Below, piece by piece: positions 41,749 to 54,358 of a DNA stretch of 64,000 bases; within the stretch, counting starts at the first letter, position 1, and every line of letters begins with the position of its first letter. The notes beneath the pieces are model-generated. The model was given only the letters and a program-made list of their open reading frames with translations. It ran no database searches and was not told where the DNA came from. The position numbers were made by a program, and so were the translations under genes. The DNA comes from Paludibacteraceae bacterium (GTDB lineage: Bacteria; Bacteroidota; Bacteroidia; Bacteroidales; Paludibacteraceae), in NCBI GenBank assembly GCA_017439235.1, contig JAFSJN010000022.1, positions 1 to 64,000 on the forward strand, written 5' to 3'.

Positions 41749-43122
41749 TTACAGACGCTCCAGCTCTACCGTAAAGTGACGCATCAGCGGAGCTTCTTTA
41801 GTAATCTTCAGTCCGCGCGTCAGGCTCATACGACGGTCGAAGACATTCTTCAGAGCCGCAGCGATAACGTCCATGTGATTATTGGTGTACACGCGGCGCG
41901 GGATACATAAGCGCACAAAGTCGAGACCTCCAAAACGATTCTCACGCGTTACAGGATCACGGTCGGCTAAGATATAACCTATCTCGCAGGCACGAATACC
42001 GGCCTCCAGATACAATTCACAGGTGAGGGTCTGAGCCGGGAACTCCTCCTTAGGAATTTGCGTCAGTATCTTATCGGCATCTACGAAGATAGCATGACCG
42101 CCGGCAGGACGCTGGTAAGGTATACCGTACTCGTCCAACTTAGCTGCCAGATACTGCACTTGACGGATACGCGTGTCGAGCATATCGAATTCGGTATTCT
42201 CCATCAATCCTACAGCCAGAGCAGCCATATCACGACCATTCATACCGCCATACGTAATAAAGCCCTCAAAGGGGATACAATAGAGTTTGCAGCCCTCGTA
42301 CCAGTCTTCCTTATTGGTAGCAATAAAACCTCCCATGTTGACCAAGCCGTCTTTCTTAGACGACATAGTCATCGAATCGACATACGAGAACATCTCGCGG
42401 GCTATCTCCTTAATCGATTTATCGGCATAACCGGCCTCGCGAGTCTTAATAAAATAAGCATTCTCGGCAAAGCGGGCAGAGTCCAGATTAACAGGCACGC
42501 CGTATTTATGGCACAACTCACAAGTAGCCTTGATATTGGCCATCGAGACGGGTTGACCACCTACGGTGTTGTTAGTAACGGTCAGTACGAAAAAGGGCAC
42601 ATTCCCTTTATTCTCACTCAGCACTTTCTCCAACTTCTCCAGCGATACATTGCCCTTGAAGGGAGCCTCCAACTGGGTATCGTGCGCCTCATCGCAAGTT
42701 ACGTCAATAGCAAACGCCTTACGCGACTCGATATGTCCTTTGGTAGTATCAAAATGGGCATTGCCGGGCACCACCTGACCGGGTTTAACCAGATACGAGA
42801 AAAGCACATTCTCAGCTGCACGTCCCTGGTGAGTAGGTATCACATACTTAAAGCCGGTGAGAGAGGTCACCACATCCTTGAATTCAAAGAACGAACGAGC
42901 GCCCGAATAACTCTCGTCACCCGTCATCATCGCCGCCCATTGACGGTCAGACATAGCACCGGTACCGGAATCGGTCAGCAGGTCGATATACACCTGCTCC
43001 GACTTAAGCAAAAAGACATTGTTCTTGGCTTCTTTGAGCCATTGTTCGCGCTCAGCGCGGGTGGATTTGCGGATGGGCTCAACCATCTTGATTTTCCACG
43101 CTTCAGCAAAAGGGAGTTCCAT
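41749..43122 (-). CDS. tnaA: Tryptophanase (tryptophan indole-lyase)
   Basis: 457 residues from ATG at 43122. An in-frame extension to 43260 is excluded because the promoter (43161-43192) lies inside it. The enzyme splits tryptophan to indole, pyruvate and ammonia with pyridoxal phosphate. The cofactor lysine is K257 in SSKKDGLV; the fold is typical (PTHQGRAAEN, DSARFAENAYF). Residues that separate tryptophanase from tyrosine phenol-lyase favour tryptophanase: FDTTKGH (D125, like Asp137 of E. coli), RACEIG in place of the VRSMERG of the lyase, and MRHFTVEL (H449) in place of LRFFTARF. No tnaC-like leader peptide is visible. Monocistronic, divergent from ispE. Confidence 0.93.
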   Translation of the reverse strand: MELPFAEAWKIKMVEPIRKSTRAEREQWLKEAKNNVFLLKSEQVYIDLLTDSGTGAMSDRQWAAMMTGDESYSGARSFFEFKDVVTSLTGFKYVIPTHQGRAAENVLFSYLVKPGQVVPGNAHFDTTKGHIESRKAFAIDVTCDEAHDTQLEAPFKGNVSLEKLEKVLSENKGNVPFFVLTVTNNTVGGQPVSMANIKATCELCHKYGVPVNLDSARFAENAYFIKTREAGYADKSIKEIAREMFSYVDSMTMSSKKDGLVNMGGFIATNKEDWYEGCKLYCIPFEGFITYGGMNGRDMAALAVGLMENTEFDMLDTRIRQVQYLAAKLDEYGIPYQRPAGGHAIFVDADKILTQIPKEEFPAQTLTCELYLEAGIRACEIGYILADRDPVTRENRFGGLDFVRLCIPRRVYTNNHMDVIAAALKNVFDRRMSLTRGLKITKEAPLMRHFTVELERL

Positions 43123-43160
43123 AGTATTACATTTTATTAGATTGCTTTGCAAAATTTGTG

Positions 43161-43192
43161 CAAAGATACGATTTTTTTTGTATATCTGCAAA
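43161..43192 (-). promoter_or_regulatory. Promoter of tnaA
   Basis: On the minus strand TATCTTTG (43161-43168), 20 bases, TTTG (43189-43192). It interlocks with the ispE promoter on the other strand (43177-43208). Confidence 0.85.
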
Positions 43193-43208
43193 TTTATTTG
43201 TACTTTTG
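43177..43208 (+). promoter_or_regulatory. Promoter of ispE
   Basis: TTTG (43177-43180), 20 bases, TACTTTTG (43201-43208). The -33 boxes of the two opposed promoters face each other 8 bases apart (TTTGTATATCTGCAAA, 43177-43192), so RNA polymerase cannot bind both at once. Confidence 0.85.
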
Positions 43209-43231
43209 CAGCAAAATTAAGTAGATAGGCT

Positions 43232-44089
43232 ATGCTTTTATTCCCGAACTGCAAAATCAATATCGGTTTGCGTGTCGTACGTAAGCGCGAAGATGGCTAC
43301 CATGACATAGAGACCGTCTTTTATCCTATTAAGGGTCTGCGGGACGAATTGGAAGTAGAGAGAGTCTATAGTCAAGAGTCAAGAGCCCAGAGCGACTTGA
43401 GTTTTGTGCAAGAGGGATTAGCAGTCGATTGTGCGGCGGAGGACAACCTGATCATGAAATGTTACCGGCAGATGGCCGAGCGGTATCCTCAGATAGGGCC
43501 GGTACGTATCCGCTTGAGGAAAAATATCCCCTTCGGCGCCGGATTAGGGGGCGGAAGCAGTGATGCGGCTCATATGGCGATAGCCCTGAACGAGTTGTTT
43601 GCCTTAGGTCTCAGTCGCGAGGAGTTGGTACAAGAGGTACGCTCGTTAGGTGCGGACTGTGCAATCTTCATATACAACGAGCCGTGTTTTGCTACGGGAA
43701 TAGGCGATATACTCACTCCCCTGCCCCTCTCGTTGAGCGGGAGACGCATCATCATGGTCAAACCCGACATTCACGTCAGCACTCGCGAGGCCTATCTGGG
43801 ACTCGCTCTTTCAGCCGACACCGCCCCCCATACTCCGCCTTGTACGATAGAGGAAATGCTGAGGCTCAGCAACGACTTTGAGCAGACGGTTTTTGCCCTG
43901 CACCCCAAGTTGGCAGAAATAAAACAGCACCTGATAGATGCAGGTGCCGTCTATGCCGCTATGTCCGGTTCCGGGTCAACCGTTTTTGGCCTTTTCGAAA
44001 ACGATACGGAAAGTAGTGCCCACGCCGGGCGTCGACTGCTTGATGAACAGACGGCCTCGATGGTAATCCTGGATGATACGCTGGCTTAG
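43232..44089 (+). CDS. ispE: 4-(cytidine 5'-diphospho)-2-C-methyl-D-erythritol kinase
   Basis: 285 residues, GHMP kinase family. IspE phosphorylates CDP-methylerythritol in the non-mevalonate route to isoprenoids. MLLFPNCKINIGLRVVRKRE and DGYHDIETVFYPI form the N-terminal substrate region; PFGAGLGGGSSDAAHMA (about residues 97-113) is the ATP-binding loop; AAMSGSGSTVFGLF is the third GHMP motif. The last 114 bases overlap the 3' end of the histidine kinase gene on the other strand. A polyprenyl diphosphate synthase, a later step of the same supply route, is encoded at 50527. Confidence 0.95.
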   Translation: MLLFPNCKINIGLRVVRKREDGYHDIETVFYPIKGLRDELEVERVYSQESRAQSDLSFVQEGLAVDCAAEDNLIMKCYRQMAERYPQIGPVRIRLRKNIPFGAGLGGGSSDAAHMAIALNELFALGLSREELVQEVRSLGADCAIFIYNEPCFATGIGDILTPLPLSLSGRRIIMVKPDIHVSTREAYLGLALSADTAPHTPPCTIEEMLRLSNDFEQTVFALHPKLAEIKQHLIDAGAVYAAMSGSGSTVFGLFENDTESSAHAGRRLLDEQTASMVILDDTLA

Positions 44090-45100
44090 GCTCAGTCCCA
44101 GTCCCCACCCGCGTGCCTTACTGGTATAACCGGGACGGAAGACGGTGCGATACAGACTGCGGTCGATACCGCGTCCCGTATCCGAGATATCCAAGAGAAG
44201 ATGGTCTTCATCTTCGCTCAACTGCAAGGTAATACGCCCTCTTCCGTCCATGGCATCGATAGCATTCTTAATCAGGTTCTCCAACACCCAACTGACCAGC
44301 GGTTTACTCACATCCGCCAGTACCGACTGCGCTTGGCATTCGGTCATCACCTCTACCTTAGACGAGATACGCGTACGCATATAGTCGGCCGTCTCCGTAA
44401 CCAATTGATACAGGTTAGTCGTCTCCAGTTCCGGTTCCGAACCCACCTTAGAGAAACGCTCTGCTATCACCTGAAGACGGTCGATATCCAGCCGCATCTG
44501 CGGGATAAGGTCGTCCTCCGGATAACGTGAACTGAGCAATTCCTGCCAGGCATTAAGCGACGAGATAGGCGTACCCAACTGATGGGCAGTCTCCTTACTC
44601 AAACCTACCCAAACGCGGTTTTGCTCGCTACGCTGCCCCGTATAGAGGGTTACTACTGCAATGAGTACAAAGAGGAAGATAATACCGAACTCGATATAGG
44701 GGAAGAAGCGCAAGCGGGTGAGCATCAGCGATTCGTCGTAATAGATATACTGCACTATGTCGTCCGAGATACGCAACTCGATAGGGCCGTTAAGCGTACG
44801 CGGGTCGGCTACCGGATGTCGTACATTACGGCTGTCGATGACTTTGCCGTCCGCATCCGTCATATAGACGGGAATAGTGGTGTTGCCCTCGATGATGGTC
44901 ATCAGAAAATTCAAATCCGTCGACTCATCCGCCAGAATCAACTGACGTGTTGCCTCCGCCCAAGTCTCCACATGACGCTGCTCCTCCTGCTGGAGTTGGC
45001 GGGCCAGATTATTGGTAAATAGTACGGAAACAATAACAATAAGCAGAGCTATAGACAAAAAAAGCGAGCCGGATTTATATGAGATATAAGGCAGTTTCAT
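43976..45100 (-). CDS. Orphan membrane sensor histidine kinase
   Basis: 374 residues from ATG at 45100; an upstream in-frame ATG (45145) lies beyond the -7 box and is excluded. Two membrane segments (about 11-29 and 136-153) frame a 105-residue extracytoplasmic sensor part. The H box is KETAHQLGTPISSL with phospho-acceptor H173; then N box ENLIKNAIDAM, G1 DTGRGID and G2 GWGLGLSLSQRI. No response regulator lies next to it, so its partner must be elsewhere. Such kinases with an AHQLGTPISSL H box are widespread in Bacteroidota. Its last 114 bases are antisense to ispE. Confidence 0.92.
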   Translation of the reverse strand: MKLPYISYKSGSLFLSIALLIVIVSVLFTNNLARQLQQEEQRHVETWAEATRQLILADESTDLNFLMTIIEGNTTIPVYMTDADGKVIDSRNVRHPVADPRTLNGPIELRISDDIVQYIYYDESLMLTRLRFFPYIEFGIIFLFVLIAVVTLYTGQRSEQNRVWVGLSKETAHQLGTPISSLNAWQELLSSRYPEDDLIPQMRLDIDRLQVIAERFSKVGSEPELETTNLYQLVTETADYMRTRISSKVEVMTECQAQSVLADVSKPLVSWVLENLIKNAIDAMDGRGRITLQLSEDEDHLLLDISDTGRGIDRSLYRTVFRPGYTSKARGWGLGLSLSQRIIQDYHRGRLFIKQSTPGVGTTFRIVFEKAKNG

Positions 45101-45122
45101 TTTTATTTGTGTTTTTCGGGTG

Positions 45123-45154
45123 CAAAGGTAATAAAAAATTTGCATATATGCAAA
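45123..45154 (-). promoter_or_regulatory. Promoter of the histidine kinase gene
   Basis: On the minus strand TACCTTTG (45123-45130), 20 bases, TTTG (45151-45154). Interlocked with the opposed promoter at 45139-45170. Confidence 0.85.
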
Positions 45155-45170
45155 AAAAAATGTAACTTTG
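45139..45170 (+). promoter_or_regulatory. Promoter of the methylmalonyl-CoA operon
   Basis: TTTG (45139-45142), 20 bases, TAACTTTG (45163-45170). The -33 boxes of both directions are the arms of the perfect 16-base palindrome TTTGCATATATGCAAA (45139-45154). Confidence 0.88.
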
Positions 45171-45214
45171 CGCCCAAATTGTAAATAAGTATACTAACTA
45201 AAAATATTTTTATC

Positions 45215-45628
45215 ATGAAACCTACTCACATCGAGCATTTAGGAATTGCTGTAACGAGTTTGGAAGAGGCTATGCCCTTCTTTGAGTTTTTAACCGGTAG
45301 CAAATGCTACTCTATCGAAGAAGTTGCGGATCAAAAGGTTCGTACCGCTTTCTTCAAGGTTGGCGAAGTAAAGATTGAATTGCTGGAGCCTACCTGCCCG
45401 GAGAGCACTATTGCTAAGTTTATCGAGAAGAACGGCGGTCGCGGTGGTGTGCACCACGTAGCCTTCAATGTAGACAACGTAGCCGATTGTCTGGCCGAAT
45501 GTGAAGCTGCCGGTATCCAACTCATCGACAAAGCTCCGCGTAAGGGTGCCGAGAACCTGATGATTGCTTTCTTGCATCCCAAGAGCACCAAGGGTGTGCT
45601 GACCGAGATTTGCCAACAACCTAAGTAA
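45215..45628 (+). CDS. mce: Methylmalonyl-CoA epimerase
   Basis: 137 residues, glyoxalase/VOC fold of two beta-alpha-beta-beta-beta modules. It interconverts (R)- and (S)-methylmalonyl-CoA. Likely metal ligands are H8 (IEHLGIAV), a histidine in GVHHVAFNV (80/81) and E131 (LTEIC). First gene of the propionate operon: the next gene is the carboxyltransferase subunit that uses the (S) form. Confidence 0.95.
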   Translation: MKPTHIEHLGIAVTSLEEAMPFFEFLTGSKCYSIEEVADQKVRTAFFKVGEVKIELLEPTCPESTIAKFIEKNGGRGGVHHVAFNVDNVADCLAECEAAGIQLIDKAPRKGAENLMIAFLHPKSTKGVLTEICQQPK

Positions 45629-54326: not shown

Positions 54327-54358
54327 CAAAATTACAAAAACTTTTGGATATATCCAAA
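54327..54358 (-). promoter_or_regulatory. Promoter with palindrome, barrel-hydrolase operon
   Basis: On the minus strand TAATTTTG (54327-54334), 20 bases, TTTG (54355-54358). The -33 box is one arm of an 18-base perfect palindrome TTTTGGATATATCCAAAA (54342-54359). Confidence 0.85.

Follow-up and report, generated by a model that had tools for sequence, protein, structure and literature searches.

The 48-bp block at positions 45123-45170 of the window (the whole 64-kb stretch of DNA analysed) is probably a polymerase-intrinsic bidirectional housekeeping promoter, built around an extended -33 element. The block is one copy of a genome-wide module in which two divergent promoters overlap across a palindrome. 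Its spacing is fixed, whereas the overlapping arrangement comes and goes, and the genes that it separates change.

Architecture of the block

Read directly from the DNA, 45123-45170 is a divergent promoter pair, each member following the Bacteroidota type TTTG-N20-TAnnTTTG (-33 TTTG, 20-bp spacer, -7 TAnnTTTG). The -7 box of the histidine kinase promoter occupies 45123-45130 on the minus strand (plus-strand letters CAAAGGTA, minus-strand TACCTTTG), and that of the mce promoter, TAACTTTG, occupies 45163-45170 on the plus strand. Two A/T-rich spacers of 8 bp (ATAAAAAA, 45131-45138; AAAAAATG, 45155-45162) flank the perfect 16-bp palindrome TTTGCATATATGCAAA (45139-45154), giving an 8-8-16-8-8 layout. 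The plus-strand mce promoter takes its -33 from the left palindrome arm, TTTG (45139-45142), and the minus-strand histidine kinase promoter from the right arm, CAAA (45151-45154). Each promoter uses the more distant arm as seen from its -7 box, which makes the two overlap by 16 bp.

The left partner is an ORF for a sensor histidine kinase (HK) with a HATPase_c match (43976-45100, minus strand). The right partner, mce (45215-45628, plus strand), is methylmalonyl-CoA epimerase-like and belongs to the glyoxalase superfamily; both its epimerase name and an operon with the next carboxylase and decarboxylase-like genes are suggested by the ORFs. From the position of the promoter, the HK start codon would be at 45100 rather than at the ATG at 45145, inside the palindrome. 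The ATGCAAA found within the palindrome, here at 45145 and in other modules, leads ORF callers to add an N-terminal MQIF..., probably from a false start. The true starts of module genes should be downstream of the -7 box, and ORF callers risk starting genes inside the palindrome, of which the histidine kinase is an example.

A preliminary description had called this a second 48-base divergent block with the same spacing as a neighbour, and the match is exact: 43161-43208 has identical offsets throughout and the same 8-8-16-8-8 layout. There, the promoter of the beta-eliminating lyase has its -7 box (minus-strand letters TATCTTTG) at 43161-43168; the near-palindrome TTTGTATATCTGCAAA with both -33 boxes lies at 43177-43192 and the -7 box of the ispE promoter, TACTTTTG, at 43201-43208 on the plus strand. 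The description had also made the -33 boxes the arms of a perfect palindrome, which is so for 45123-45170, the centre of the sister block being a near-palindrome. The genes flanking the sister block are corrected here to a beta-eliminating lyase on the left (ORF 41749-43122, minus strand), presumably tryptophanase-like, and a GHMP kinase on the right (ORF 43232-44089, plus strand), which we take to be ispE.

A genome-wide module

Divergent TAnnTTTG pairs at gaps of 20-50 occur twice in the 64-kb window (shuffle mean 0.21; 1 of 100 shuffles reaches 2). The pattern used for window and assembly, CAAANNTA-N20..50-TANNTTTG, finds 57 pairs in the whole 1.49-Mb assembly, compared with 1 for a reversed-pattern control. 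At the exact gap of 32 (outer length 48) there are 28 pairs, while gaps 33-47 combined hold 10, or 0.67 per neighbouring spacing, a 42-fold enrichment (Poisson P ~2e-35). Among the 50 places listed of the 57, the outer length is 48 in 23, 40 in 16 and another value in 11. In a 452.5-kb sample, divergent box pairs are distributed similarly: an outer length of 48 has 9, one of 40 has 4, and no other length from 30 to 69 has more than 1. An automatic ORF rule puts divergent genes on either side of the module in 16 of the 23 cases from this genome and, for a database set of at least 120 loci, in 80 of the 120 matches listed.

Two other readings of the region were examined and set aside. The 48-mers fold as RNA hairpins (z -2.2 and -3.1), as any inverted repeat would, and the predicted transcription starts lie outside the 48-mers. 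A search of 43000-45400 for E. coli-type sigma-70 promoters gave 1 match against a shuffle mean of 2.9.

The extended -33 element and the choice of 48 bp

In the one-way promoters of this genome, the -33 extends to a common TTTGC[AG]TATATS, with an A-rich run after it. The extended element comes close to being self-complementary, its centre lying at the step between positions -17 and -16. In the 452.5-kb sample, TTTG stands at spacer 20 in 50 of 90 box-bearing upstream regions and at spacer 19 in 7; the 42 unpartnered spacer-20 promoters have A-17 in 83%, T-16 in 90% and T-14 in 95%.

Across the genus, the peak at 48 goes with an abundance of extended promoters. Counted on both strands, these number 121, 211, 181, 124 and 208 in the five genomes that hold 26-37 pairs, against 82 in G014 (14 pairs), and 25 and 13 in G011 and G104 (4 and 5 pairs). 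Over the 8 genus genomes, however, the rank correlation of fold-enrichment with the fraction of extended promoters, modules removed, is only 0.69 (Spearman, P 0.06).

We then scored overlaps at outer lengths 30-62 using a matrix built from 53 unpartnered promoters. With the core matrix, 48 is the least conflicting overlap (1.5 bits lost; next 56 at 3.7), and with a wider matrix (positions -34 to +13) it loses 9.6 bits, the next being 46 at 18.5. The joint optimum sequence of the 53-promoter matrix contains TTTGCATATATGCAAA. The strictest subset, 39 promoters, leaves out those with a CAAA arm or a near-complete second -7 box, which might be cryptic bidirectional promoters. In it the wider matrix still places 48 first (16.5; next 46 at 20.5). 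The core matrix instead prefers 56 (3.0 bits) to 48 (5.3), yet an outer length of 56 was not seen among the divergent pairs of the 452.5-kb sample; compatibility thus explains much of the choice of 48, but perhaps not all of it. Matrices built from other genomes, of 5-12 promoters each, do not put 48 in first place, for which they are too small; this includes two genomes with the peak (G061, rank 4; G090, rank 3). For one other genus of the family, a matrix of 88 sequences has 48 third at 5.9 bits, the best being 54 at 3.4.

On this basis, we propose that the primary-sigma RNA polymerase of the clade would read the -7 TAnnTTTG together with the extended -33 TTTGC[AG]TATATS. Because the extended -33 is near self-complementary, the opposite strand would offer a second -33 element 12 bp away. 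Adding a -7 box to each arm, with the usual spacer of 20 bp, would produce two divergent promoters that overlap and together span exactly 48 bp. The polymerase may engage the shared palindrome in either orientation, one at a time. Since two polymerase complexes would overlap, one would exclude the other, and two divergent housekeeping genes would share and compete for one loading site. Transcription in both directions, reading of the palindrome by polymerase rather than by a regulator, and mutual exclusion are what we infer from the layout. In its favour, each half of the block is a complete clade-type promoter; weighing against bidirectional reading, divergent genes have separate promoters at an HK/mce locus (G125) and at an ispE locus (L110). 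Sigma factors were located by motif in two database loci only.

The strongest competing explanation, though an improbable one, is that a dimeric transcription factor, Crp/Fnr-like for instance, uses the palindrome as its operator and regulates the two genes together; the position of the palindrome around the -33 boxes would then reflect regulation rather than reading by polymerase. TTTGCATATATGCAAA and TTTTGATATATCAAAA are indeed well-formed palindromes, near-perfect palindromes also occur at a few one-way promoters that have no second -7 box (such as 54343-54358), and the core matrix makes 56 about as compatible as 48, yet 56 is absent. However, the second arm mostly tracks the second -7 box, which is present with 0-1 mismatch at 12 of 20 promoters with a CAAA second arm and at 3 of 46 without the arm (each module entered once per strand). 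Moreover, the left half of the palindrome is the normal -33 element of one-way promoters, the flanking genes recognizable by eye look like unrelated housekeeping genes, and the module stays while its partners change.

Orthologous loci

The preliminary description had held that orthologous regions keeping the spacing while other bases turned over would support a module, and had counted the loss of one promoter, or freely varying spacing, against it. At HK/mce, spacing and both promoters are kept despite base turnover in two relatives whose HK is 54-56% identical. The G061 locus, located by protein search, keeps the exact block with spacer and centre changed (HK 201/371 identical, mce 86%); G162, whose locus was chosen because it carries the pattern, also keeps the exact block (HK 56%, mce 91% identity). 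By contrast, the divergent HK/mce pair of G125 has two separate, non-overlapping promoters. A motif test of 30 HK loci placed mce upstream of HK in the window's own genome and G125 only.

The ispE upstream regions, 30 loci fetched by protein, gave a similarly mixed outcome. The exact 48-bp block is present in 7, against separate divergent promoters in 1 (L110), a strict one-way promoter in 4 and no strict promoter in 18, several of which are apparently inside operons. Where the block is present its partners change, with a tRNA gene opposite in two loci. The anticipated argument against a module is thus borne out in part: the overlapping form comes and goes, but its spacing is fixed.

We also compared 86 modules from four genomes. 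Fifteen cross-genome pairings, representing 9 distinct gene pairs, were similar on both sides and 22 on one side only; these are similarities (blastp E up to 1e-8) and orthology is not proven. Nearly all loci in this set were chosen by the pattern or came from stretches holding it, and the conserved spacing within the set is due to most of it having been chosen by the 48-bp pattern.

These comparisons bear on the highly improbable alternative that the block is a spreading palindromic repetitive element, containing two promoters by chance and copied widely. It would account for the many similar 48-mers within one genome. Against this, the spacer and central bases vary between copies, and the copies occupy different divergent gene pairs, mostly between divergent gene starts. 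The 9 distinct gene pairs that keep the module between genomes indicate that the copies are not recent. A repeat or mobile element was therefore rejected on copy divergence, varied gene pairs and cross-genome retention.

Distribution across genomes and viruses

The 7 other members of the genus within our family sample were tested for the same peak. At gap 32 we found 28 pairs in G061, 37 in G090, 26 in G145 and 33 in G162 (30-, 35-, 28- and 22-fold over the mean of gaps 33-47), 14 in G014 (10-fold), and 4 and 5 in G011 and G104 (~3-fold each). The peak is therefore 10- to 35-fold in five of the seven and ~3-fold in two. By eye, the 33 places in G162 have a TTTG/CAAA-type centre with few departures.

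In 112 genomes from other genera of the family, there were 292 pairs at gap 32 and 3661 over fifteen gaps, a ratio of 1.2. Raised counts in four of these (16 in G161, 10 in G089, 13 in G047 and 8 in G140) were discounted, as the places listed, three in the case of G140, have no palindrome; several of those listed for G161 are one repeated sequence. In a phylum sample of 345 genomes, the window's own genome has 28 pairs at gap 32 and the others 0-12, the highest (G503) having 12, but also 9 in the control. Separately, a weak, roughly twofold excess was seen in f49, a family of distant Bacteroidota (G300, G351, G387, G478 and G505), with 5-9 pairs at gap 32 compared with 2.6-4.9 expected from neighbouring gaps.

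Scanning a collection of 84,980 species for the 48-bp geometry with both -33 arms yielded at least 120 loci. Among the 120 matches listed, 51 are labelled Paludibacteraceae, 3 Candidatus Colicola (a Paludibacteraceae genus), 56 Bacteroidales only, 7 Prevotella or Prevotellaceae, 1 Bacteroidia and 2 Flavobacteriaceae. In 82 of these 120, three or all of the four free central pairs are complementary, although the pattern did not demand complementarity. Judged by sequence, the 48-bp module appears restricted to one clade among the genomes sampled.

Viral contigs gave 72 matches at the 48-bp geometry against 25, 2, 4 and 0 at four neighbouring offsets. This looked like a peak, but the 72 collapse to 10 clusters, the same number as for the next offset, and we claim no viral preference. 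Five of the ten clusters (62 of the 72 matches) look like one helicase/small-gene locus, judged from one member each. In this divergent phage pair (L306, L307, L313, L314, L331 and others), the 48-bp geometry has varying, often symmetric centres, for example TTTGGTAATAACCAAA.

A coincidence of A/T-rich gene spacing with a common promoter motif, for which one could cite the A/T-rich boxes, the near-background 292 gap-32 pairs over the 112 other-genus genomes and the matching geometry in phages (mostly one gene locus), has a negligible probability and is already refuted for the window's genus by the 42-fold excess over neighbouring spacings, the strong peaks in five of the seven other members of the genus and the nearly empty reversed-pattern control. 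The suggestion in the preliminary description that two blocks of identical geometry reflect a module rather than chance is accordingly upheld by the 28 pairs at exact spacing in the assembly and by the contrast between the genus and the other genera.

Relation to known promoters

The bidirectional promoters of E. coli and Salmonella described by Warman, Grainger and colleagues arise from -10 symmetry, with starts mostly 18 bp apart and by definition 7-25 bp apart (PMC10268837). The polymerase-intrinsic promoter proposed here would resemble them in that a near-symmetric core promoter element permits polymerase binding in two orientations (PMC10268837). The difference lies in what is shared: the -10 hexamer in their promoters and the extended -33 in the 48-bp block, where the -7 boxes are 32 bp apart and non-overlapping, so no symmetric -10 is shared. 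The predicted starts would also be more than 48 bp apart, outside their range of 7-25 bp.

The sigma ABfr promoter of Bacteroidota has a -33 TTTG and a -7 TAnnTTTG (PMC7366714). The block has this -7 on both strands, each with a -33 TTTG ~20 bp upstream, and in sequence its halves resemble ordinary sigma-ABfr promoters. The B. thetaiotaomicron motif has an A/T-rich spacer of variable length (PMC7366714), whereas the spacer here is nearly fixed at 20 and, unlike in the B. thetaiotaomicron motif, the -33 extends to a near-palindrome. Searches of an open-access library turned up no account of bidirectional promoters centred on the -33. What is new is thus the -33-centred variant, divergent transcription from -10 symmetry being already known in E. 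coli.

Evenly balanced, in our judgement, is the wider proposition that a self-complementary extended -33 arose in one clade of Paludibacteraceae-like gut bacteria and brought with it, throughout the genome, a class of bidirectional promoters strictly 48 bp long. In these, the symmetry would be set by the upstream contact (sigma region 4), not by the melted -10/-7 element, and divergent housekeeping genes would share a single loading site with built-in mutual exclusion. If true, symmetry-driven bidirectionality would not be tied to the -10 hexamer; any core element that is near-palindromic in a given lineage could give rise to it. Because the genus includes both genomes that have the extended -33 and genomes that lack it, how bidirectional promoters emerged could be tested by comparison.

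Other promoter elements

The second peak, at outer length 40 (16 of the 50 listed places), was considered as a further bidirectional form and rejected, since by eye most of these places are one-way promoters that have A/T sequence joined to their -33, the second box having no -33 of its own. One is nested in a 48. The same places point to a second promoter type: TTTGCGTATATC, an A-rich stretch, then GCAGTA or GTTGTA. In this type CAAAAATA is often joined directly upstream of the -33 TTTG, and the promoter seems one-way.

At 54327-54358, a one-way minus-strand promoter carries the perfect palindrome TTTGGATATATCCAAA (54343-54358) and has no second -7 box; by eye, an inverted repeat rich in G/C and then a run of T are found immediately upstream. 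A AATTAAAAATTAAAAATTAAGAATTAA-like element recurs beside promoter-like boxes at three places in the window's own assembly (G000 C1:49229-49290, C16:4894-4955 and C19:5938-5999). Finally, in the segment 60001-64000 of the window GC falls to 0.396, with a GC skew of -0.141, lowest among the sixteen 4-kb steps; the segment is possibly acquired DNA.
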